From: Candidatus Poseidonia sp.
GTDB taxonomy: Archaea > Thermoplasmatota > Poseidoniia > Poseidoniales > Poseidoniaceae
Direction: 5' to 3'
Assembly (NCBI GenBank): GCA_030827475.1
Contig: JAUREJ010000001.1
Span: 1-40,041 of the forward strand
DNA length: 40,041 nucleotides
Made by a program: the position numbers and the translations under genes. The notes under the pieces are model-generated. The model saw only the letters and a list, made by a program, of their open reading frames with translations, had not been told where the DNA came from and did no database searches. The first letter of the stretch is position 1. The number at the start of each line of letters is the position of its first letter. This document shows, one piece after another, positions 6,782 to 34,929 of the stretch.

Positions 6782-7177
6782 GTGCAGGAAACCATCGTGT
6801 TCTCCAACTGGGTGCTGGTCGCCGTCGGCGGTGCAGTCGGCGCCTTGCTTCGGTACGCATTGAGTGAAAACATGGCTTCCGAGACCTATCCTTGGGCAAC
6901 CTTGACAGCGAACCTGCTCGGTTCGTTTGCCCTTGGTGTGGTGACGGCATTGGTCGCTGCGAGCGTTGTTGGTGAACAGCAGGCGTTGCTGTTAGGCATG
7001 GGCCTTCTCGGTTCATTTACGACCCTTTCGACGTTTTCGGTTGAAAGCGCACACATGCTCGATGAAGGACGGCATTCCACGTTGGGCCTTTACCTCGCTC
7101 TCACCGGCGTTCTCGGCCCGTTGTTGGCCTTGCTTGGGTGGAAGGGGACGGCAGCGTTGCTTCCCGTCACGCCTTGA
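6782..7177 (+). CDS. crcB: fluoride ion channel CrcB/Fluc
   Basis: A 131-residue protein with four membrane helices of the CrcB/Fluc family, which forms dual-topology dimers exporting fluoride. Typical motifs are present: GGAVGALLRY near the N-terminus, NLLGSFALG, and GLLGSFTTLSTFSVE, which contains the polar and aromatic track residues. The start codon is GTG; the first helix follows directly. There is a single crcB gene here, so the channel would be a homodimer. I looked for a fluoride riboswitch in the 88 bases upstream and saw no convincing match. The 3' end overlaps the convergent nadA gene by 11 bases. Confidence 0.9.
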   Translation: MQETIVFSNWVLVAVGGAVGALLRYALSENMASETYPWATLTANLLGSFALGVVTALVAASVVGEQQALLLGMGLLGSFTTLSTFSVESAHMLDEGRHSTLGLYLALTGVLGPLLALLGWKGTAALLPVTP

Positions 7178-8321
7178 TGGCCAACATGCGGTTGAGCGCC
7201 ATGAGCGAACCTTCCTGAACATCTTTGGGCACAACGATTTGGTTGGGGATTTCACCGTCAACCAAGCGTTCGAGCACGTCCATCAAATAGGCTGGATGAA
7301 TCATGTACATCGTTGAACACGGACAAATTTCCTCGTCCAAACACTCGATGTGCTTGTCGGGGTGTTCTTGGGCCAGTCGAGCCACCATGTTGATCTCCGT
7401 ACCAATGGCCACCGATGCCCCGGCGGGCAACTCCTCCACGTACTTGCGAATGAAATTGGTTGAACCGTAGGCATCAGCAAGGTCGACGGTTGCTTTGGGA
7501 CATTCCGGGTGCACCACGACCAAGCCGTCGGGATGTTCAGCGCGGAACGCATGAATCTGGTCGGGCGTGAACCGCTTGTGAACGGAACAAAAACCGTGCC
7601 AGAGAACGATTCTGGCGCCTTTCAGCGGCATGCTTGCACCGATCCCCGGTGTCCATGTCGGCATCGCCATTTCCGAAACGCCCATGGCATGACCGGTGTT
7701 TCTTCCAAGGTGTTGATCGGGGAAGAACAACACGGCCCCCTCTGGGCCTGCTCGCTCAAAGGCCCAGTTGAGGACGCCTTCGGCGTTTGAAGACGTGCAA
7801 ACCACCCCGCCGTGGCGACCCACGAAATCCTTGAGGTCTGCGCTTGAATTCATGTAGGTCACGGGTACGAGGTAGGAGGTTCCCTCCTCAGCGGGCGAAT
7901 CGGCATCGGCTCTAGAGATGGGGTCAGCAAGACCGGACTCGGCAAGGATGGCGTCCCAAGCGGCTTCAACCTCAACAAGCGTCGCCATGTCCGCCATCGA
8001 GCAACCCGCACGGAGGTTGGGAAGCACCACGGATTGCTCGTCAGACGTCAGAATATCGGCGGATTCCGCCATGAAATGAACGCCGCAAAAGACGATGTGT
8101 TTTGCCGAGGATTCGGCCGCTTTCTGGCTGAGCATGAAGGAATCCCCGAGGAAATCGGCGTGCATGACGATGCTGTCCCGTTGGTAGTGGTGACCCAGGA
8201 TGAGCAGGTCGTCGCCCAACTGGGCTTTCAGTTCTTCAATTCGGTCCGCAATCGCCTGTTCTTCAACCGACAGCGAGGTGTCCATGAAGTTGACCGAACA
8301 CATGGGGAGGGAAATGCTCAT
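7167..8321 (-). CDS. nadA: quinolinate synthase
   Basis: A protein of about 384 residues, NadA, which condenses iminoaspartate with dihydroxyacetone phosphate to quinolinate in NAD synthesis, using a [4Fe-4S] cluster. The first of three repeated domains shows LGHHYQRD. Cluster cysteines appear in NLRAGCSMAD, in VVCTSSNAEGV and near the C-terminus in EEICPCST. VVHPECPK, typical of the third domain, is also present. Several Met starts exist (8339, 8321, and MDTSLS near 8285); I chose 8321, but the conserved part begins only after MDTSLS. nadB and nadC are not adjacent. The gene is divergent from bud32 and overlaps crcB by 11 bases at the 3' end. Confidence 0.93.
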   Translation of the reverse strand: MSISLPMCSVNFMDTSLSVEEQAIADRIEELKAQLGDDLLILGHHYQRDSIVMHADFLGDSFMLSQKAAESSAKHIVFCGVHFMAESADILTSDEQSVVLPNLRAGCSMADMATLVEVEAAWDAILAESGLADPISRADADSPAEEGTSYLVPVTYMNSSADLKDFVGRHGGVVCTSSNAEGVLNWAFERAGPEGAVLFFPDQHLGRNTGHAMGVSEMAMPTWTPGIGASMPLKGARIVLWHGFCSVHKRFTPDQIHAFRAEHPDGLVVVHPECPKATVDLADAYGSTNFIRKYVEELPAGASVAIGTEINMVARLAQEHPDKHIECLDEEICPCSTMYMIHPAYLMDVLERLVDGEIPNQIVVPKDVQEGSLMALNRMLAIKA

Positions 8322-8406
8322 GGGACTCAACAGTCCCACGCATCAACCCTTTTTCAATGAACGGATAGGGCTGAAGTTTCAAAAAGCCCCAAGCATGCGT
8401 TGTGCC

Positions 8407-11218: not shown

Positions 11219-11572
11219 TTACCATGCGCCGTGGACGTAGGGCCTGCCACGATCGGGGTCCCGTCGGTTGGCGAGGTCGTAGATTCGCTCGAAGCGATAA
11301 ATGCCGCTCGAACAGCCTTGCTGCCATTCAAAGGAGAGCGCATATTTGCCGACCGTTTTGACGGTCGGTTTCTCGGCCGGCAGCGCCTCAACCTGCCTTC
11401 GGAGGGTCCGGCTGGTGTCGTCTTCGTTGCGCATCGGTGCACATTTTGCGCAAGGGCACGCATGTCGCACGTCGTCGTAACTTACCGTGAAGGTGGAGTC
11501 GTCGTCGTAGGTCAGCACCATGTCGCTGGTACGTCGCTCGAGTTTCTTCAGTGTGGGAAGCGGTTCGCTCAT
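11219..11572 (-). CDS. DUF971 (GBBH-like N-terminal) domain protein
   Basis: A 117-residue single-domain protein of the DUF971 family, the fold found at the N-terminus of gamma-butyrobetaine hydroxylase and at the C-terminus of the plant Fe-S carrier HCF101. CPCAKC (Cys39, Cys41, Cys44) matches the three zinc cysteines of that fold. The fourth ligand, usually His in a GHxSGIY-type motif, is Cys87 here in QQGCSSGIY. It starts 9 bases after the stop of the Mrp ATPase gene on the same strand, so the two are almost surely cotranscribed and probably work together in iron-sulfur protein maturation. The family call is strong; the role is inferred from neighbour and fusion evidence. Confidence 0.85.
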   Translation of the reverse strand: MSEPLPTLKKLERRTSDMVLTYDDDSTFTVSYDDVRHACPCAKCAPMRNEDDTSRTLRRQVEALPAEKPTVKTVGKYALSFEWQQGCSSGIYRFERIYDLANRRDPDRGRPYVHGAW

Positions 11573-11581
11573 CGTTCCACC

Positions 11582-12595
11582 TCAAACGATTTCCAAACCG
11601 CTGTCGGTGCCGTCGGAAAGTTGGGCTTGAATCGCCTCAACCACGTTCGCAAACGCACGGGCAGAGGGGCCCTCGGGTTCGGAGACGATGCGGTGGACCC
11701 CGTCATCACCGCCGCGAACGAAACCTGGGTCAAAGGGCAAGGCCCCCAAAAACGGGACACCGAATTCCTCCGCCGTGGCTTGACCCCCGCCTTGCTTGAA
11801 GATGTCAAGGGTCACGGAAAACCTTCCATCATCGTCCGCTTTTGTCGTGAGTGTTTTGCCGCCGGGAGCAGCGATGTTGAGGCTCGTTCCGGGAGGTGCG
11901 GTGCCGTGGACGGTGAAGCCGCTCATGTTTTCCACCACGCCGAGCACGGGAACCTTCAGGGATTCGGAAAACGTGATCGATTTTCGGCTGTCGAGCAAAG
12001 CAACCTGTTGCGGCGTGGTGACGATGACCATGCCGTCAATGTTGGGAAGGGACTGAGCTACGGTCAACGGTTCGTCGGATGTACCGGGAGGGAAATCGAT
12101 GATGAGGAAGTCAAGTTCACCCCACTCAACGTCGCCGATGAATTGTTGAATCGCCCCGAGTTTGATGGGGCCTCGCCAAACCACGGGTGTGTCTTCGTCC
12201 TCCAGAAGGAAGGCCATGCTGATGACCTTGACACCCAAATGGCCTTCAGCAGGATGAATGCGTTTGTTCTCAACGTGAAGACGACGCCCGTCCAAACCCA
12301 TCATCTTGGGGACGTTTGGACCGGTGATGTCGATGTCAAGAATGCCGACGCGATGACCTTGTTGGGCCAAGGAGAGGGCTAAACCGGTGGAAACGGTGGA
12401 TTTCCCAACACCGCCTTTCCCAGAAAGGACCATGATCTTGTGTTTGATTTTCCGCCCGATTTCCTCCATCGCCATCTTCCGTTTCATCTGAGCATATGCC
12501 TGCTCCATTTGCTTCTGCTCTTGGGGCGATGGTTCGGGGTTGGCCGGTGCCGACTGGCCTCCGGGGGAGTTGATGGTCACGGGGGAATCCGCCAT
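11582..12595 (-). CDS. Mrp/NBP35-family P-loop ATPase without cysteines
   Basis: A 337-residue ATPase of the Mrp/ApbC/NBP35 group, cytoplasmic carriers of [4Fe-4S] clusters. The deviant Walker A GKGGVGKST (59-67), DIDITGPNVP, the IIDFPPGTSDE motif and VVENMSGF (220-227) are clear. Family members normally have a C-x-x-C after ENMS that holds the cluster between two subunits. Here that site is replaced by an insertion of about 35 residues (228-263, Gly/Thr/Asp-rich) before the usual GGG..AEEFGVPFLG, and no cysteine occurs anywhere in the protein. There is no N-terminal DUF59 domain. With the DUF971 gene downstream, the pair resembles a split HCF101. It may act as an ATPase for a cluster bound elsewhere, or do something else. 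Confidence 0.88.
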   Translation of the reverse strand: MADSPVTINSPGGQSAPANPEPSPQEQKQMEQAYAQMKRKMAMEEIGRKIKHKIMVLSGKGGVGKSTVSTGLALSLAQQGHRVGILDIDITGPNVPKMMGLDGRRLHVENKRIHPAEGHLGVKVISMAFLLEDEDTPVVWRGPIKLGAIQQFIGDVEWGELDFLIIDFPPGTSDEPLTVAQSLPNIDGMVIVTTPQQVALLDSRKSITFSESLKVPVLGVVENMSGFTVHGTAPPGTSLNIAAPGGKTLTTKADDDGRFSVTLDIFKQGGGQATAEEFGVPFLGALPFDPGFVRGGDDGVHRIVSEPEGPSARAFANVVEAIQAQLSDGTDSGLEIV

Positions 12596-13050: not shown

Positions 13051-13446
13051 ATGCACTCAAAACCACATTGTTTCATGAACATCTTGTTTGTGTGTGTCGG
13101 CAACTCGTGCAGGTCGCAAATGGCCGAGGGTTTGGCCAAGGCGATGGGGTTCACCGCCTCATCGGCAGGCACGCATCCTGCAACCGCCGTCGCGCCCCAT
13201 GCGCTGACCTTGTTGGAAAGCCGAGGCATCGACACCACCGGCATGCACCCCCAGAGCATCGATGAATTCCAACCCGAGACCTTCGACAAGGTGATTTCAA
13301 TGGGTTGCGGCGTTCATTGTCCCGCCATCAAGATCGATGATGACTGGGGCTTGGAGGACCCGGTTGGAAGCGAATACGACGTGTATGAGCGCACCGCAGA
13401 AGAGATTGAGCGCCGCTTGAAAGCGCTGCTCGATCAAGCCTCTTGA
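13051..13446 (+). CDS. ArsC-type low-molecular-weight phosphatase-fold protein (arsenate reductase-like)
   Basis: A 131-residue protein of the LMW tyrosine phosphatase fold. The P-loop CVGNSCRSQMAEG lies near residue 15. Later GCGVHCP, with two cysteines, and DDWGLEDPVG match thioredoxin-coupled arsenate reductases, which use the P-loop Cys and two further cysteines to reduce arsenate to arsenite. The start at 13051 has AAAGGA five bases before it; MNILFVC at 13075 is an alternative that removes a short unconserved tail. No arsenite exporter or ArsR is adjacent, so a general phosphatase role remains possible. Its last 13 bases overlap the convergent alba gene. Confidence 0.85.
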   Translation: MHSKPHCFMNILFVCVGNSCRSQMAEGLAKAMGFTASSAGTHPATAVAPHALTLLESRGIDTTGMHPQSIDEFQPETFDKVISMGCGVHCPAIKIDDDWGLEDPVGSEYDVYERTAEEIERRLKALLDQAS

Positions 13447-13754
13447 GCCGCGGGGACCTCACCTTCACCGGTCAAATCGATGCGCAGCACACTGACTGTG
13501 CGAACCCCGTCCTCAGCTGGGATTTCTTCCGATTCGCATGCGAGATGGTCAATCGTGACCGTTTCGGGCAAACTTTGTGCGATGTGACCGCTCCGACGAC
13601 GGCAGACTTCAGCTACATCGACAGCCCTAGAGATGGTGGCCCCCCGGGCCACCAACTGGACGGCTCGGTTCCCTTCCTCCATCGCCATAACGACGGCGCG
13701 AACGTAGGCGTGCAACGGTTTTTTGCCAATGAAAATCTCTCGACGGTCGGACAT
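13434..13754 (-). CDS. albA: Alba chromatin/RNA-binding protein
   Basis: A 106-residue Alba-family protein, a dimeric archaeal protein that coats DNA and binds RNA. The N-terminal IFIGKKPLHAYV has the Lys-Lys pair that includes the acetylation site known from Sulfolobus Alba. VARGATISRAVDVAEVCRRR forms the central helix, and EEIPAEDG..VSVLRIDL the C-terminal hairpin. The start at MSDRREIFIG is fixed by homology and by GGGGAGA five bases upstream. An in-frame extension to 13970 runs through the tRNA gene and is not real. A tRNA-Gly gene lies just upstream on the same strand. Confidence 0.93.
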   Translation of the reverse strand: MSDRREIFIGKKPLHAYVRAVVMAMEEGNRAVQLVARGATISRAVDVAEVCRRRSGHIAQSLPETVTIDHLACESEEIPAEDGVRTVSVLRIDLTGEGEVPAAQEA

Positions 13755-13828
13755 GGTTCTCCCCTTCGGAAAGGTGTTTCCTCCATCCCATAAAACTTCA
13801 CAATCAAGCGTTGAACGAGAGCATGAAA

Positions 13829-13900
13829 TGCGAGCGCCGGGACTCGAACCCGGGTTCAGGCGTTGGCAACGCCCGGTGATAACCACTACACTACGCTCGC
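13829..13900 (-). tRNA. tRNA-Gly (anticodon GCC)
   Basis: On the minus strand the sequence folds as a cloverleaf: acceptor GCGAGCG/CGCTCGC with discriminator A at 13829, a D arm containing AGTGGTTA, an anticodon stem GGGCG/CGCCT with loop TTGCCAA (anticodon GCC), a 4-base variable loop GAAC, and a T arm CCGGG-TTCGAGT-CCCGG. No CCA is encoded and there is no intron. A TTTAAA box lies 26-31 bases upstream. The alba gene follows on the same strand. Confidence 0.96.
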
Positions 13901-13925
13901 TTGCATCCCTCGCACCTTGCAGGGG

Positions 13926-13931
13926 TTTAAA
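13926..13931 (-). promoter_or_regulatory. TATA box of the tRNA-Gly gene
   Basis: TTTAAA lies 26-31 bases before the tRNA 5' end in GC-rich surroundings, the distance expected for an archaeal TATA box when transcription begins at or near the mature 5' end. Confidence 0.6.
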
Positions 13932-13966
13932 CGATTGTCGGCCGGGTTGAAATGACCCGTCAAAGG

Positions 13967-16900
13967 TCACTGCATCCCGAACCGGTCAAGCGACTCGCCG
14001 TCTTGCCCTCCCTGTCGGCGGTTCATCAGGCCCAAAACAACGAGAGCGCCCAACAAAAGGAGGCCGCCAAGGACGGTGACCAAAACGGTGTTTGAGGAGG
14101 CACCCCCTTCACCTGAGCCGCTCCCGTCCACCAACTGTATGGCGACCGAAGTGGTGTTCATTTCTCCGTACGCATCAAAACTCCGAACGCTCACTTCATG
14201 CGTGCCGAGCGGCGTCCCATCACGTATGGAAAGCACCACGGAATACACGCCATCTCCGGCCGTCAAATCACCGCCGGAGCGACCGTCATCGTGCATCGCC
14301 GTCCACGAACTTTGGCCGAGGGGAGCGTAGACGCCCAAATCGATTTGAACGCGTTCAATGCCGTCTGGATCGGTCACGACGACCGTAAAGACAGCGGTTT
14401 CCTCGGGGTTTTTCTCAACCGTGAGGGGCAACGCTTCCATCACAGGTCGGTCGTTCAGCACCTCGATTTCGATGGGGTTCTCCGAGGCCACGGTAACGTG
14501 ATGGGGGCCTTGGAGAGAATCCCCAACTTCGCCATCGGGTTGCGTGAAGGTTTGGTAACGTTCGCTGGCTCCCAAACTGTCCTCAACCACCACCGTGACG
14601 GTCTGAACCCCCGGCGAGAAGCCAAGTGGAAGCGGCACCATGGCCGTCCAAACACCGTCCGTAGCCGTCAAGTCCACCAGCGTGCCTGCGTACATGCGAA
14701 GGTCCAACTGGACCTTTGAAACACCGTGGCCATCGTAAGCACGGGCGTTCACCACGGTGGATTGACCGCGTTCAAGCGATGCGGGGGCAAACTCAACCGA
14801 CAGCAGGCGAGGCGCTTGGTTGAGGACCGTGATCGACCCTTCCTCGGTGCTTACCGAACCAAAACTGTCCGTGGCCGTAACGTTCACCGAGTAAACACCG
14901 ACTTCAAGCCCCGTGACACGCAGCGTGGTGGTGTAGACATCGTCACCGATGCTTAGATCACCGTCAAGTCCCCGGTCGTTGAGTTGAAGGATGCCCAAAC
15001 CGACGTTGCCGGCATCAGCGGTGACCTCTACCACGTTCCATTCCGTATCGGTGACGCTCACCTCAAAATGAGCGAGGCTGCCGCCTTCCCCAAGGACCAG
15101 ACCTTCACGAAGGCCGATTCCAGCAATCGCCGGCGGGTTATTTTCGTCCTCACTCACGATTTCGGGTGAAAGAACCCGGTCGAGGTGCTGTGTTTCTTGA
15201 ACCGAAATGCTTTCACCGTTGGCGCCGAAGGGAAGGCTCAGGTTGCGCTCAACGTTAGAAAGCAAGCCTGACAAGGGGCCTACAGAGACCACGGATCCAA
15301 AGGCCGTCCCCGATTCGCCTGAGCCCCCGTATGTCCCGCTCCACTCGATCACCGTCAAGTTGTGGCCGTCTCGTGCATCGATGGCGGTTCCCCCCGCAAG
15401 CACTGAAAGCGACATCCCGTCTTGCTGATTGAGCAGCAAGCGGTCGTTGGTCGCCATCGGAATGGGCATGAAACCGGTTTCCCGACCGACCGTGACGTCA
15501 CCAAGGCCTTCCTCGGAGACCGGTGCCGTAGGGTCCTGTTGCACCGGGCTGTTGTCGGGGAAGGATTCGCCTTCAGATGCATCCGGACCGGTTTCCCGCC
15601 ACACCAAGCGAACCGTCCGGTTGCCCCAATCGGACTGAACTGCCTGATAGTCCCACGTTTGGTTGTGGGTAGCGCCGATTCCTGCGCCGTCAAAGAAATT
15701 CCCACCGTTCACCCCGGTGATGTTGAACCAAGACTCTTGGAAGATGACGTTGACGAGGAAGGATTCACCCGTTGCGTTGGCTTGCATGCCCGTGGTCTCA
15801 ATGCCACGCACGACTCCAAAGGAGCCTTGCACATCTCCCGTCAGCACCCCGTCAACGTGGAGGTCATCAACCGTCGTGATGCCGTTCTCGATTTTTGTGT
15901 GCAGGTCCAGAATGGTCCCGTTCACCTGCACGGAAGCGTTCTCTTCTTCACCCTCAAACCCAAAGGTACCGTCGCCGTAGAGTTCCTCCAGGTGCTCGGT
16001 GCGGACGCCGTTTTCCCACCGCTCCAGCGAAATGAAGCCGTCCAATTCGACGTCCAATCGGGTGCCGTCTTCAACGAGCACGAAATCAGCCATGGCCTCG
16101 AAAGCGGTGTGTTGAAGCAAGCGTTCTCCGTTGACATCGTGATATTCGAAGAAGAACACGGCGAGTTCGCCATCGATGTTCAACGAACTGTTCTCCGCCC
16201 CGTCCTCTGTGACATTCAGGCTGCCCGTCGCTTCGAGCAGCAAGCGCTCACCGACGATGCCGTTCACCAACGAACGGTTGAGAAGGGCTTGGGAGACATC
16301 GGCGTGGACCACCGTTTCCATCTCCCCGTCGATCACCGTGGTTTGAAGAGAGCCGAAACCGCGAGCATCGAACACCTGATGCGTCAGGATTCCTGCAACG
16401 AGCGTTTCGTTCTTCCAGACTTGCGTGAGGACCAAATCGAGGTCCGTTTCACCCTCTCGTGTGGTCTCGAGAGTTTGGAACGTGCCGTTGCCCAGTTCCC
16501 AAGAAGAGAGCACTTCGCCAACGCGTTGCTGCCAGCCCTGCCCGGTAAAACCCAAAGCAAAACGTTGCGGACCTGAGCCGTTGTCGTAGACTTGTTCAAG
16601 CGACCATGAACTCGTGAGCATCACTTCGTGGTCATCCATCGGTTGGTTCCAAACCCCCACCGTCAATTCACGGCTGTGGATGACATCAACCGGACTTCCG
16701 TCCCGAGAGGTGACGTGCGCATCCAGCACGATGCGATCGCCCCAAACCAACGAGGTGTTGAAGGTCGCAAGTGCGGTTCGCATCCCGTCATCGCTATCCC
16801 ATTCAAGCACGTAGGAAGTGGGAAGCAGCGTATCGTTTCGGCGGTGTTCCATGGACAGGTTGACCTGGTAAGAAGCGTTGTCTGCAAACGAGAGCAAGTA

Positions 16901-24036: not shown

Positions 24037-25920
24037 ATGAGCAAAGTGATTGGAATTGACCTTGGAACAACGAACAGCTGCGTGGCGACCATCGAGAACG
24101 GCGAACCCGTCGTGATCCCCAACGCAGAAGGCGCCCGAACCACCCCCTCGGTGGTCGCGTTTGCAAAAGACGGCGGCGAGCGATTGATCGGCGTCACCGC
24201 CAAGCGCCAAGCGGTGACCAACTCCGACCGCACCATGATCTCTGTCAAGCGGCACATGGGGACCCAGTGGTCCACCGACGTCGATGGAACCACCTACACC
24301 CCGCAAGAAATCTCTGCGTTCATCCTCCAGAAGTTGAAGGCCGATGCAGAAGCCTACCTGGGGCACGAAGTGAAGCAAGCGGTCATCACCTGCCCGGCCT
24401 ACTTTACCGACGCACAGCGAAAAGCCACCAAAGACGCCGGCCGAATTGCTGGGCTTGAAGTGCTTCGCATCATCAACGAACCCACCGCTGCGGCATTGGC
24501 CTACGGCGTTGACAAGACCCAGGACCAAACCATCCTCGTCTACGATTTGGGTGGTGGAACCTTTGACGTCTCCGTCCTCGAAATCTACGAAGTGGACGGC
24601 CAACCCCAAATCGAAGTCAAGGCCACTGCAGGAAACAACAAATTAGGCGGCGACGACTTCGACGAGAAGATCATCGCATGGATGACGGCCGAATTCAAGA
24701 AGGACACCGGCATCGACCTGTCCAAGGACAAGCAAGCCATGTCCCGACTGAAAGAAGCCGCAGAGAAAGCGAAGATTGAACTCTCCGGGACCCAACAAAC
24801 GCAGATCAACCTGCCCTTCATTTCCATGGCAGACGGCCAACCCGTCCACATGGACCTCACCCTCTCTCGGGCCAAGTTTGAGGATTTGATTTCCAAACTG
24901 ATCGAGAAGACGATGGTCCCGACCCGCCAGGCGATGAAAGACGCCGGCCTGAAGAAGGGCGACGTCGACAAAGTCATCCTCGTGGGTGGTTCAACCCGTG
25001 TCCCAGCGGTCCAAGACGCCGTTGAGAAAGAAGCGGGCAAGCCACCGTACAAGGGCATTAACCCCGACGAAGCCGTGGCGATGGGCGCCGCCCTCCAAGC
25101 CGGTATCATTGCCGGTGACGAAGGCGTCTCCGACATTCTCCTGCTCGACGTGACTCCCCTGACCTTGGGCATCGAAACCCTCGGCGGCGTCATGACGACC
25201 ATGATCGAACGGAACACCACCATTCCGTCCCGACGCTCCGAGATTTACTCAACCGCCTCCGACAACCAACCCGCCGTTGAAATTCATGTCTTGCAGGGCG
25301 AGCGCGAGTTTGCAAAGGACAACGTCACGCTGGGCCAGTTCCAGCTCGTTGGCATCCCACCCGCACCCCGCGGCGTGCCTCAAATCGAAGTCACCTTCGA
25401 TATCGACGCCAACGGCATCGTGAACGTTAGCGCCAAGGACATGGGAACCGGTAAAGAGCAATCCATCAAAATCGAATCCGCCACCTCACTCTCCGAAGAC
25501 GAGATTCAAGAAAAGATCGCCGAAGCCGAGAAGTTTGCCGAAGAAGACCAACGCCGAAAGGCCAAGGTCGAGTTGAGAAACATGGCTGATCAGGTGGTCT
25601 ACCAAACCCGACGCACGCTTGAGGAATCCGCCGATAAATTGGACGACAGCGATGTTGACCCCGTAAAGGCCCACTTGGACGAGTTGGAAAAGATGGTCCA
25701 AGACGACGATGGGAAACCCGTTGCCATCGAAGCCATGGACGACGCCGCCATTCAGGCCAAGGTCAAAGAAATCGAGGAAGCCATGCACGCCGTCTCCACC
25801 AAACTCTACGAAGCTGCTGCTGCCGAAATGGCGCAACAAGAGAGCGGGGAAGACGGCGCCATCAACATGGACGATGGCGTCGTTGACGCCGATTTCGAGG
25901 TCGTTGAAGACGAGGACTGA
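24037..25920 (+). CDS. dnaK: molecular chaperone DnaK (Hsp70)
   Basis: A 627-residue Hsp70 of bacterial type, an ATP-driven chaperone that binds exposed hydrophobic peptides. The ATPase domain shows [11 protein letters not shown] at the N-terminus, the phosphate-2 motif [16 protein letters not shown], and [13 protein letters not shown]; the linker and peptide-binding domain begin at [17 protein letters not shown]. The lid is complete and the acidic tail ends EVVEDED. GGAAGTGA lies before the ATG. DnaK is patchy in archaea and thought to be acquired from bacteria; there it usually sits with grpE and dnaJ. Neither partner is in this window. Instead the neighbours are an Hsp20-like gene and a divergent chaperonin. 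Confidence 0.97.
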
Positions 25921-25979
25921 ACCCGTACCTCAAGCCTGCAAAGCGCTTGGCTTATGGCAGGGATGTCGGTGGCAGAGGC

Positions 25980-27581
25980 ATGAGCGAAGTCCCCATCCTC
26001 AAGGAGACCACCCGCTCAACGGGGAGAGAAGCCCTTCGAAACAACATCACTGCAGCGATGGCGCTGGCTGGAGCGGTCCGTACCACTCTTGGACCCTTGG
26101 GTCAGGACAAGTTGCTCATTGATGACGAAGGTCGCACGATGGTGACCAACGACGGCGTGACGGTGCTTGAATCTGCGAAGGTTGAACACCCCGTGGCCAA
26201 GATGCTCATCAACGCCTCAACCACCCAAGACCGCATCGCTCGAGACGGCACCACCAGTGCCGTTCTTCTTGCCGCTGAACTTCTTCAAAACGCATGGGAA
26301 TTGGTGCTCCAAGGGGTCCATCCCTCCGCCATCGCTCGAGGCTACCGACTGGCTGAGGAAGCCTGCAGGGAACATTTTCCAAAACTCGTTGTCAACGCAA
26401 CCCCTGAGAGGCAACACCAAGCCGCCGTCACCTCCCTCGCTGGAAAAATCCACACGGCAATGCAAAACCATCTCGCTGAATTGGCCCTCCAAGCCGCCCA
26501 AGCGGTCGTGGAAGAGCGACCCAATGGCATTGTGGTGGACCCCACCCGGGTCAAGATCCTCACCCAAACCGGAGGGGCAATGACCGATTCTCACCTCGTC
26601 ATGGGCTTGGTTCTCGCCAAAAAACGAGCCACGGACCTCATGCCGAAACACCTCGTTTCTGGAAAAATTGCCCTCATTGACGGAGGACTTGAACGCCGAG
26701 AACTGATGAGCAGCGTCAACGTCAACCTCACGAAGGCGGGCGTCCTCGACGAGTTTCGCCAGCAAGAGAAAGCCCTGCTTCACGAGCAAGTTGACCATCT
26801 CGCCGCCATGGGCGTCACATTGCTGGCCTGCAAAGAAGGGATTGACGATGACATGCACCGTCGTTTGAGCAATGCGGGCATCCAAGCATATCGAAGGGTT
26901 GCTCGCTCGGATTTGGACCTGCTCGCGCGAGGGACCAACGCCACCCTCAACCACGACATCAGCAGTTTGACCGAGCGGGATTTGGGCGTCTTCATCTCCA
27001 GCCGCAACGAACATTGGAACGGGGTCATGCATTGGATCGTCGAAACCGAAGAGGGCGGAGCGACCTTCATTGCGAAGGGGTCAACCAACGAAACCGTGGG
27101 TGAGGTTGAGCGGTGTTTTGCCGACGCCCTCGGGGTGGCTTGTCAATTGCTGGAGGAGCCCCACTTGTTACCCGGCGGCGGCGCAACCCAGATTGCGCTG
27201 GCACGGCACCTTCGCCGATTTGCAGAGCGATTTCCCGGGCGCGAACAATTGGCCATCGAAGCCTTTGCCGATGCGCTTGAGGTCATTCCGAGAGTGCTCG
27301 CCCAAAATGCAGGTTTGGACCCCTTGGACACCCTCCTCAAAACCGTGGCCAAACAAACCACGGCAGAAGGCGATGAAGGGCATTTCATCGGCATGAACGT
27401 GCGAACAAAAGTCCCTGCCAACATGGTTGAAGAGGGCGTTGTTGAACCCCTTCGCATCACCCGTCAAGTGCTCTCCGGGGCCACCGAGGCTGCACTCTCC
27501 GTGCTTCGCATCGATGACGTGCTCTGGGCCAAACAGGACCCAACCGTGCCCGATATGCCCAAGAACGACGACGATTCTTGA
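25980..27581 (+). CDS. divergent group II chaperonin (thermosome) subunit
   Basis: A 533-residue protein related to thermosome/CCT subunits, which build double-ring folding chambers driven by ATP. TTLGPLGQDKLL, VTNDGVTVL, the hinge-region TGGAM, the DAL of the catalytic-Asp helix and LLPGGGATQ are in the family positions. The ATP loop normally written GDGTT is RDGTT here (Arg88), a position nearly always Gly. PGGGATQ replaces the usual PGGGAPE. Length is close to normal, and the C-terminus ends in acidic residues instead of the Gly/Met-rich tail of main subunits. The start at MSEVPILKE is preferred over an upstream frame from 25947. It is 59 bases after dnaK on the same strand and probably belongs to the chaperone cluster. 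It may be a specialised or ATPase-impaired subunit. Confidence 0.85.
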   Translation: MSEVPILKETTRSTGREALRNNITAAMALAGAVRTTLGPLGQDKLLIDDEGRTMVTNDGVTVLESAKVEHPVAKMLINASTTQDRIARDGTTSAVLLAAELLQNAWELVLQGVHPSAIARGYRLAEEACREHFPKLVVNATPERQHQAAVTSLAGKIHTAMQNHLAELALQAAQAVVEERPNGIVVDPTRVKILTQTGGAMTDSHLVMGLVLAKKRATDLMPKHLVSGKIALIDGGLERRELMSSVNVNLTKAGVLDEFRQQEKALLHEQVDHLAAMGVTLLACKEGIDDDMHRRLSNAGIQAYRRVARSDLDLLARGTNATLNHDISSLTERDLGVFISSRNEHWNGVMHWIVETEEGGATFIAKGSTNETVGEVERCFADALGVACQLLEEPHLLPGGGATQIALARHLRRFAERFPGREQLAIEAFADALEVIPRVLAQNAGLDPLDTLLKTVAKQTTAEGDEGHFIGMNVRTKVPANMVEEGVVEPLRITRQVLSGATEAALSVLRIDDVLWAKQDPTVPDMPKNDDDS

Positions 27582-33651: not shown

Positions 33652-34830
33652 CTACAACTCGGCCACGCGAAGAAGCCTCGTCGTGCGGAATCCCTGCAGA
33701 ATCTTGACAAAGCGTTTGGAATGGAAGGCTTGGTCCAATCCTTCATCACCGGTATCGATTCGGACCGCCTCAAGACCGATGAGTTTTGACGGCGTGGCAA
33801 CGCCCAAAATGTTGTTCTGGCCGATGCACCGCAAGACATCAGGTGAAAGTTGAAGGTTCCCTCTTCCGATCAAAAAGCCTTGACCGCCCATCGGGGAAAG
33901 AAGGAGGAGAAGAGGGCGTTGTTCTCCCGAAGCGTCGACGTGGCCACCGATGATGTCCAGAAGTGCGGCTTCGTTCAAGTCGGTGTGCAACGATTCGGCA
34001 TGCTGGACGTCAATGCCGAGGAGCGTGAGTTCAAGATCGAGATGCTCGCCCATCCGGCGCAAGGTACCGCCGCTGCCCCAAACCACCATCAAGTCCGGTT
34101 CGTCTTCCAGCAAGACGGCGACGTGCTTGGCCAAGCCTTCAATGGTGTCTTCCTCGCTTACCCGCTCAACTTGCTCTTTTGCTCCCTGCATGAACCGAGG
34201 AGAGGAGGGCGTCCACGCCTCGCCGTACATCCGGACCTTCCATTCGCCTTGGGAGTAGACATCTTCGTCGAGGTCCATGACTTCGGTGATCGCCGTGCGG
34301 AGGTCCCCGATGGCGTAGGCCAGGACCACTTCGGCCGCCGCCTTGGGGGTCGTCGCAAAACAACCGGAGTGCATTTTCACGCCCCCTGGAACCCCGATGA
34401 GCGCCGTTTTCATGGCCTCAGGGCCGCAGGTTTCGAGCGCGTTCACGATGTCTCTCGTCGTGCCGTCACCACCGGCGTAGAGGATGGCATCCACCTGCTG
34501 AGCGACCAATTCTTGGACGAGGCGGGCGGTGTCCGAAGGCGTGGTCGTGTCGGGTGTGGCTTCGGTCCACGTGTTGAGAAAAGAGGACGATTCAGGCGCC
34601 CATGCAGAACCCATCCGGCCCATCCAACCGACCAAAGTCACGGTGGTGGAGGTACGGTTGAGCGAGGAGGTGGCCAAGGTATCAAGATGTTCCAAACACC
34701 GTTGCATGCGCGGGCCAGCCCGGTCTTGAGCCCCTGCTGCACGGGCTTCCGCTGCCCGACCGTCGCTGCCCTTGAACCCCAATTTCCCGCCCAGGCCTGC
34801 ATCGGGATTCACCACCAAGCCGAGGCGCAT
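33652..34830 (-). CDS. ATP-NAD kinase/AcoX-family protein
   Basis: A 392-residue protein of the NAD-kinase-related family often annotated ATP-NAD kinase or AcoX-like (COG3199). It begins MRLGLVVNPDAGLGGK, carries the phosphate-binding YAGGDGTTRD near residue 155, then IGVPGGVKMHSG, and a C-terminal GRGNLQLSP and IGLEAVRIDTGD. Family members are predicted to phosphorylate NAD or a similar substrate, but few have been tested. The start at 34830 is fixed by the N-terminal strand; an upstream ATG at 34899 adds an unconserved extension. It is 83 bases upstream of the sirtuin gene on the same strand, so an NAD-related theme is possible but unproven. Confidence 0.82.
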   Translation of the reverse strand: MRLGLVVNPDAGLGGKLGFKGSDGRAAEARAAGAQDRAGPRMQRCLEHLDTLATSSLNRTSTTVTLVGWMGRMGSAWAPESSSFLNTWTEATPDTTTPSDTARLVQELVAQQVDAILYAGGDGTTRDIVNALETCGPEAMKTALIGVPGGVKMHSGCFATTPKAAAEVVLAYAIGDLRTAITEVMDLDEDVYSQGEWKVRMYGEAWTPSSPRFMQGAKEQVERVSEEDTIEGLAKHVAVLLEDEPDLMVVWGSGGTLRRMGEHLDLELTLLGIDVQHAESLHTDLNEAALLDIIGGHVDASGEQRPLLLLLSPMGGQGFLIGRGNLQLSPDVLRCIGQNNILGVATPSKLIGLEAVRIDTGDEGLDQAFHSKRFVKILQGFRTTRLLRVAEL

Positions 34831-34929
34831 GGTGGACGGTCTTGTCGCTCCCTCAAAAAGACCCGCGAAGCAAATCCACGCTGGAACCACACAACCCACC
34901 CCAGCCTTCTTGAGCAGAACCGTTCATTC

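Follow-up and report, generated by a model that had tools for sequence, protein, structure and literature searches.

A cysteine-free Mrp/NBP35-family ATPase with an Ig-like insert at the CxxC site, and its DUF971 neighbour, in marine archaea of the order Poseidoniales

Introduction

The P-loop ATPases of the Mrp/NBP35 family are described as binding a bridging cluster by a CxxC motif between two subunits; the motif is presented there as conserved and essential, and the role of nucleotide hydrolysis is called unclear (PMC6345978). In HCF101, an Mrp domain is joined with DUF59 and DUF971 in one chain. This architecture, the CxCxxC motif of DUF971 and the unknown function of that domain have already been published (PMC7980591, PMC11838916), and one of these texts calls the role of DUF971 in HCF101 elusive (PMC7980591). 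For plant HCF101, Cys128, Cys347 and Cys419 have been reported as required for the cluster (PMC5890173). The archaeal order Poseidoniales is called globally abundant in the title of a paper cited in a reference list.

Here we analysed a stretch of 40,041 nucleotides from a Poseidonia genome (the window). An initial annotation of it had pointed to an Mrp protein without cysteine, encoded next to a DUF971 protein, and had proposed a split HCF101-like iron-sulfur system. Among open-licence papers, we found none that describes a cysteine-free Mrp in marine archaea or an Ig-like insert in place of CxxC.

Results

The Mrp gene and its motifs

The features of the locus are listed in Table 1. The window comes from a Poseidonia-type archaeon of marine group II (order Poseidoniales), and its four nearest named relatives were Poseidonia assemblies with 94-97% protein identity. 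Members of the Mrp family are recognised by the string GKGGhGK[ST] together with the NUBPL/ParA profile, and the window Mrp carries both, with GKGGVGKS as its Walker A and a PF10609 match at E 4.4e-90. The best stretch of this match stops at residue 230, just past ENMSGF, which is the site where other family members carry CxxC. As claimed in the initial annotation, the ATPase motifs are present and the protein contains 0 cysteines. CxxC was found in 0/105 distinct insert-type sequences. Judged from its sequence, the window Mrp is a member of the ATPase family by descent, not of the cluster-carrier type by motif.

Table 1. Positions of the Mrp-DUF971 features in the window
Feature	Position	Strand	Basis
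DUF971 (GBBH-like_N) protein, 117 aa	11219..11572	-	Pfam PF06155, E 5e-15
Fourth DUF971 ligand position, Cys87 (occupied by His in those Mrp-DUF971 proteins read that have CxxC)	11312..11314	-	
C-x-C-x-x-C motif of DUF971, Cys39, Cys41, Cys44	11441..11458	-	translation; kept in 77/77 unmasked relatives
Intergenic gap of 9 bases with a GGTGG Shine-Dalgarno-like stretch	11573..11581	-	sequence; role inferred
Cysteine-free Mrp/NBP35-family P-loop ATPase, 337 aa	11582..12595	-	Pfam PF10609, E 4.4e-90; 0 Cys
Ig-like (Big_6-type) beta insert replacing the CxxC stretch, residues 228-263	11807..11914	-	spacing, Pfam, PDB profile, model, Foldseek
Deviant Walker A GKGGVGKS, residues 59-66	12398..12421	-	translation; invariant in the alignment of 11 members

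A separate classical Mrp, which with no link of the pair to Fe-S proteins would have spoken against the initial proposal, did not appear within Poseidoniales: no second Mrp above the family score was found in the own genome or in the Poseidoniales genomes G029, G039 and G116, and G059 gave one further partial match of 35.6 bits. Two weak matches in the own genome were considered as candidates and rejected, since on reading their sequences they appear to be ParA-like and ArsA-like, respectively. In the single-contig relative G039, the Mrp match (G039:C1:1777267-1778270) is split near query residue 299 into two pieces that lie in different frames, which may reflect a real frameshift or an assembly error.

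Length, spread and constraint of the insert

The survey gave 195 loci with an Mrp match. Five masked or partial loci without the P-loop string (L126, L150, L186, L192 and L214) were dropped, and 133 distinct sequences were left. Among those dropped, L126, L150 and L192 (Poseidoniales) carry the insert, while L186 and L214 come from one genome of the marine group III genus g24 and are of the type of that genus. The spacing from ENM to GGG was 43 or 44 residues in 105 of the 133 sequences. From the P-loop on, 84 of these 105 have no cysteine and 21 have one. All of the measurable distinct Poseidoniales sequences (103/103; assigned by kinship or by at least 78% identity to the window protein) have spacing 44 and no CxxC, and the two sequences with spacing 43 belong to family f31. 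The other 28 comprise 20 that keep CxxC (spacing 17 or 18 in 18 of them and not measured in two), six from genus g24 with spacing 17 and no CxxC, and two deletions with spacing 7, one from a genome of family f24 and one from a genome of family f35.

The missing CxxC and the insert length, whose conservation in homologues the initial annotation had proposed to check, are therefore common to the order. Relatives that keep CxxC, which would have counted against it, are absent within Poseidoniales and present farther away in the phylum. The insertion had been put at about 35 residues; residues 228-263 do replace the CxxC stretch, but the net gain is 27 (ENM-44-GGG against ENM-17-GGG). The insert-bearing sequences stem from many different assemblies. 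Among the matches listed for 389 genomes sampled across the phylum, the insert was traversed only in the two Poseidoniales families and in f31 (G176 and G237). A tree holding the Poseidoniales and f31 inserts together as a single origin was not rejected (p-AU 0.145).

Over 28 sequences, the raw pN/pS values of the ATPase core, the insert and DUF971 were 0.061, 0.316 and 0.235, respectively; they are rough because synonymous sites are near saturation. The ATPase core is strongly constrained, and the insert is less, yet clearly, constrained. On this constraint, the idea of a junk insert was dropped.

Likeness of the insert to Ig-like domains

Pfam Big_6 matched the insert in 10 of the 11 members tested (E up to 0.05), with a best E of 8.2e-8. 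The match of the window insert (E 2.1e-4, 21.9 bits) lies below the curated cut-off of 27.6, which was exceeded in the relatives G116 and G039. Of 12 genomes searched in full, five carried Big_6 at the Mrp gene, and the own genome had one further, weak match elsewhere; the Poseidoniales genomes G057 and G059 and both f31 genomes gave no Big_6 match. The f31 insert fragment alone gave E 0.0075. Since the match spans only profile positions 12-60 of 83, the domain is incomplete.

In the PDB, a profile built from 49 insert fragments matched a staphylococcal biofilm surface protein in its Ig-like repeats (7dm0, E 3.8e-9; 6m3a, E 1.5e-4). The fragment was modelled with five strands at a mean pLDDT of 75.2 and a pTM of 0.54; residues 11-50 had block means of 87-91. 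Foldseek with this model gave no match at E up to 0.001, and its first matches were Ig-like adhesin repeats with E about 0.2 and a TM-score of 0.68 by query length; at such an E the Foldseek likeness is support, not proof. By these profile and model matches, the insert is similar to a portion of an Ig-like domain of bacterial type.

The DUF971 neighbour and its metal-site residues

The second claim of the initial annotation, a DUF971 protein with four cysteines encoded 9 bases on, was borne out (Table 1), and the protein passes the Pfam gathering score of GBBH-like_N (56.4 bits vs 22.8). DUF971 lies directly downstream of Mrp in 79 of the 80 named Poseidoniaceae-like relatives (L035-L114), the exception being L082, where the contig stops 71 bases on. 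All four cysteines are kept in 77/77 unmasked Poseidoniaceae loci, with L045 and L059 masked at those sites. The gene order round the pair is largely conserved in Poseidoniaceae, so the adjacency is weak evidence of a complex; it also survives rearranged neighbourhoods (e.g. L086 and L097). In the sister family of Poseidoniales, Mrp and DUF971 were on different contigs in 9/9 genomes in which both were found. Of 145 genomes sampled across the phylum, 33 had a DUF971 match, one each: 31 belong to the two families of Poseidoniales and two to marine group III. Three Poseidoniaceae genomes and one marine group III genome of this sample gave no match. Mrp and DUF971 modelled as one read-through chain gave a pLDDT of 52.6 and a pTM of 0.47, too poor to judge contact.

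The metal set of GBBH-like_N is CxCxxC plus His; the window protein has the CxCxxC, but Cys replaces His. Human gamma-butyrobetaine hydroxylase (BBOX1) binds zinc through such a Cys3His set, and Cys4 sites hold zinc as readily as clusters. The residue at this fourth position varies with the state of Mrp. Where Mrp keeps CxxC, DUF971 has CxCxxC and the His of a DGH motif (4/4 proteins of marine group III genus g23, L140, L141, L142 and L220, and 3/3 plasmid proteins read), whereas in Poseidoniales, where Mrp is without CxxC, the position is Cys (77/77 unmasked Poseidoniaceae and 11/11 sister-family loci). Genus g24 is also without CxxC, and neither Cys nor His stands there in the 6/6 proteins read. 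The Cys/His contrast may reflect only two or three evolutionary events.

Other lineages without CxxC

The CxxC has been lost in other ways elsewhere in the phylum. In genus g24, the Mrp-DUF971 chains (L139, L143, L186, L218, L219 and L221) have GFTPPGS instead, and the Mrp of the sister genus g23 keeps CxxC. In the two insert-bearing f31 genomes (79% and 92% complete), DUF971 was not found, and each has one further short P-loop match. In the f31 genome G176 (L165), Mrp lies near electron-transfer flavoprotein-like genes and a gene for an A-type-like Fe-S carrier, as read from the translations. The two Mrp proteins with the CxxC stretch deleted are L179 (f35) and L181 (f24), and DUF971 was not found in either genome. 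Beside L181, the f24 genome contains another strong Mrp-like match. In the f35 genome the Mrp is cysteine-free and the only one above the family score, with no DUF971 found, which suggests that the ATPase is useful without a cluster. As f24 and f35 lost CxxC with no DUF971 found, loss of the cluster site does not seem to require DUF971. From f31, f24 and f35 together, a shared cluster site in an Mrp-DUF971 complex is possible, not required.

Fused Mrp-DUF971 proteins

In marine group III, DUF59, Mrp and DUF971 form one chain. DUF971 was also matched in five plasmid records, in all of them under a gene named P-loop NTPase, and the three of these proteins that were read are all Mrp-DUF971 fusions. 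The first is encoded together with SufU, BolA, GrxD, two NifU-type genes and LipA in one run; the second and third lie between an Rrf2 regulator and a NifU-type gene.

The fused examples in our trees were those of marine group III and the three plasmid proteins, with eukaryotic HCF101 and stand-alone bacterial DUF971 absent. In the Mrp tree, a 95/97 branch set Poseidoniales, together with the ordinary Thermoplasmatota Mrp proteins, apart from the fused ones, the exception being one long Thermoplasmatota row, f6, on the fused side. In the DUF971 tree, a 100/100 branch separated Poseidoniales from the fused proteins. The three domains do not form one chain in the window either: Mrp and DUF971 are separate ORFs, and the DUF59 matches of the own genome are on other contigs. 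In neither tree, drawn without eukaryotic HCF101, does a half of the pair branch with the fused proteins. Since both trees separate them, the pair does not look like a broken HCF101; at best, by these trees, the same two modules were paired independently. To our knowledge, HCF101 of land plants is also without the canonical CxxC.

Iron-sulfur gene setting and other genes of the window

The class genomes were searched for SufB/D, DUF59 and the A-type carrier. SufB/D-type genes were found in 55/60 genomes, a DUF59 match in 58/60 (in marine group III partly within the fused chain) and an A-type carrier in 56/60, the own genome being among them in each case. One of the two DUF59 matches of the own genome shares contig and strand with SufB/D genes.

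Quinolinate synthase NadA, a [4Fe-4S] enzyme, is encoded at 7167-8339 (-), downstream of the pair beyond a PAP2 gene, and NadA lies near the pair in 67 of the 80 named relatives, in either orientation. Upstream, an Alba-domain ORF at 13434-13970 (-) has 77 residues ahead of its domain match and a GTG start that may be too early; its end overlaps by 13 bases with an opposite-strand gene for a low-molecular-weight phosphatase / arsenate-reductase-like protein (13051-13446, +). A Hsp70 gene is followed directly by a thermosome-type chaperonin gene at 24037-27581 (+). The NAD-kinase-like protein of 415 aa at 33652-34899 (-) has its N- and C-terminal domain matches about 120 residues apart.

Discussion

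In this study, a metal site commonly regarded as essential seems to have been replaced in a widespread order of marine archaea, with the enzyme retained. The Mrp ATPase is strongly selected after loss of the cluster site, and this therefore offers a natural separation of ATP function from cluster binding. The His-to-Cys contrast of DUF971 is a concrete site for testing the role of that domain.

The reading we prefer, with a rough probability of 0.45, is that the cluster-free Mrp serves as an ATP-driven adaptor in Fe-S maturation and that DUF971 provides the only thiol metal site of the pair. Having no cysteine, the Mrp cannot hold the usual bridging cluster, and would no longer carry a bridging [4Fe-4S] cluster but act as an ATP-driven docking adaptor in the maturation of Fe-S proteins. 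Cluster chemistry would be done by a SUF-type system and the A-type carrier, with Mrp downstream of both. The insert would replace the cluster at the dimer interface, assuming the contact with the other subunit or with a client, which is the simplest inference because it occupies the site where the cluster would be. DUF971 would be the partner subunit, and its site would most likely hold zinc and serve target recognition. We count for a cluster-free adaptor the constraint on ATPase core and insert, the lack of CxxC in all 105 insert-type sequences, the absence of a second Mrp above the family score in the own genome, G029, G039 and G116, the cysteine-free sole Mrp of the f35 genome, the presence of SufB/D, DUF59 and A-type carrier in most class genomes and the fused Mrp-DUF971 proteins beside Fe-S genes on bacterial plasmids, and against it the poor joint model, the unlinked genes in the sister family, the largely conserved gene order that weakens the adjacency in Poseidoniaceae, and the fact that a Cys4 site could hold a cluster.

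The last point leads to the alternative raised in the initial annotation, that DUF971 supplies the cluster site. The pair would then be a two-protein Fe-S carrier in which the Cys4 site of DUF971 holds the former cluster of Mrp and Mrp supplies ATP-driven transfer. The four cysteines are kept throughout the unmasked Poseidoniaceae loci, and the fourth is His where Mrp keeps CxxC and Cys in Poseidoniales without it, as such a transfer of the site would have it. This contrast may, however, count as two or three events only, and genus g24 lost CxxC yet has neither residue there. Moreover, f31 carries the insert and neither of its two genomes gave a DUF971 match, Mrp and DUF971 lie on separate contigs in the sister family, and Cys4 is equally usual for zinc. 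We regard a two-protein carrier as distinctly less probable than an adaptor.

Slightly less probable again is that the incomplete Ig-like sheets, derived from an adhesin repeat, complete each other at the Mrp dimer axis and form a metal-free clasp in place of the bridging [4Fe-4S] cluster, with ATP-driven opening and closing kept and the thiol site on DUF971. We hold it equally doubtful that the cysteine-free Mrp works outside Fe-S metabolism, as a regulator or a carrier of other cargo, by analogy with B. subtilis SalA. SalA is an Mrp-family protein described as having linked ATP- and DNA-binding functions (PMC5035731), and Mrp proteins without CxxC do occur in separate parts of the tree. The plasmid fusions, on the other hand, sit with Fe-S genes, none of 11 members showed a DNA-binding domain in Pfam, and the insert is Ig-like in look.

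A break of an ancestral DUF59-Mrp-DUF971 chain into separate genes, the split HCF101 of the initial annotation, is highly improbable. All three modules are separate proteins in Poseidoniales and one chain in the sister marine group III, the pair is conserved, and fusions exist, the plasmid ones beside Fe-S genes; this much of the proposal stands. Descent from such a chain does not, as both halves are set apart from the fused proteins, Mrp with 95/97 (and the f6 row on the fused side) and DUF971 with 100/100 in trees without eukaryotic HCF101 and stand-alone bacterial DUF971. Although the assemblies are mostly metagenomic and the G039 gene match is broken, a sequencing, assembly or gene-decay artefact is next to impossible, since one insert of fixed length under purifying selection is conserved across two families and many assemblies, which rules out a pseudogene or assembly error.

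In comparison with known systems, the Poseidoniales Mrp belongs to the same P-loop ATPase family as the Mrp/NBP35/ApbC carriers (PDB 6g2g, Cfd1; 2ph1; 3kb1; 8zkc) and can be aligned with them on both sides of the insert. It differs in being without CxxC, in the window without any cysteine, and in having the Ig-like insert at that site. With the Big_6-type Ig-like domains of Bap (PDB 7dm0 and 6m3a) and SiiE (PDB 2yn3), the insert shares the strand pattern and, with Bap, about 34 residues of sequence; unlike these domains, it is partial and lies inside an ATPase without sign of surface location. The DUF971 / GBBH-like_N structures (PDB 3luu, 2l6n and 2l6p) have the same domain, and 3luu the same CxCxxC, but theirs is His at the fourth position where the window DUF971 has Cys. 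The same difference sets the Poseidoniales protein apart from the CxxC-bearing fused proteins of marine group III and from those of the plasmids. As in HCF101, Mrp and DUF971 are encoded together in Poseidoniaceae, and a separate DUF59 is present in the genome; unlike HCF101, the chains of Poseidoniales are separate, are without CxxC and stand apart from the marine group III and plasmid fusions in both trees.
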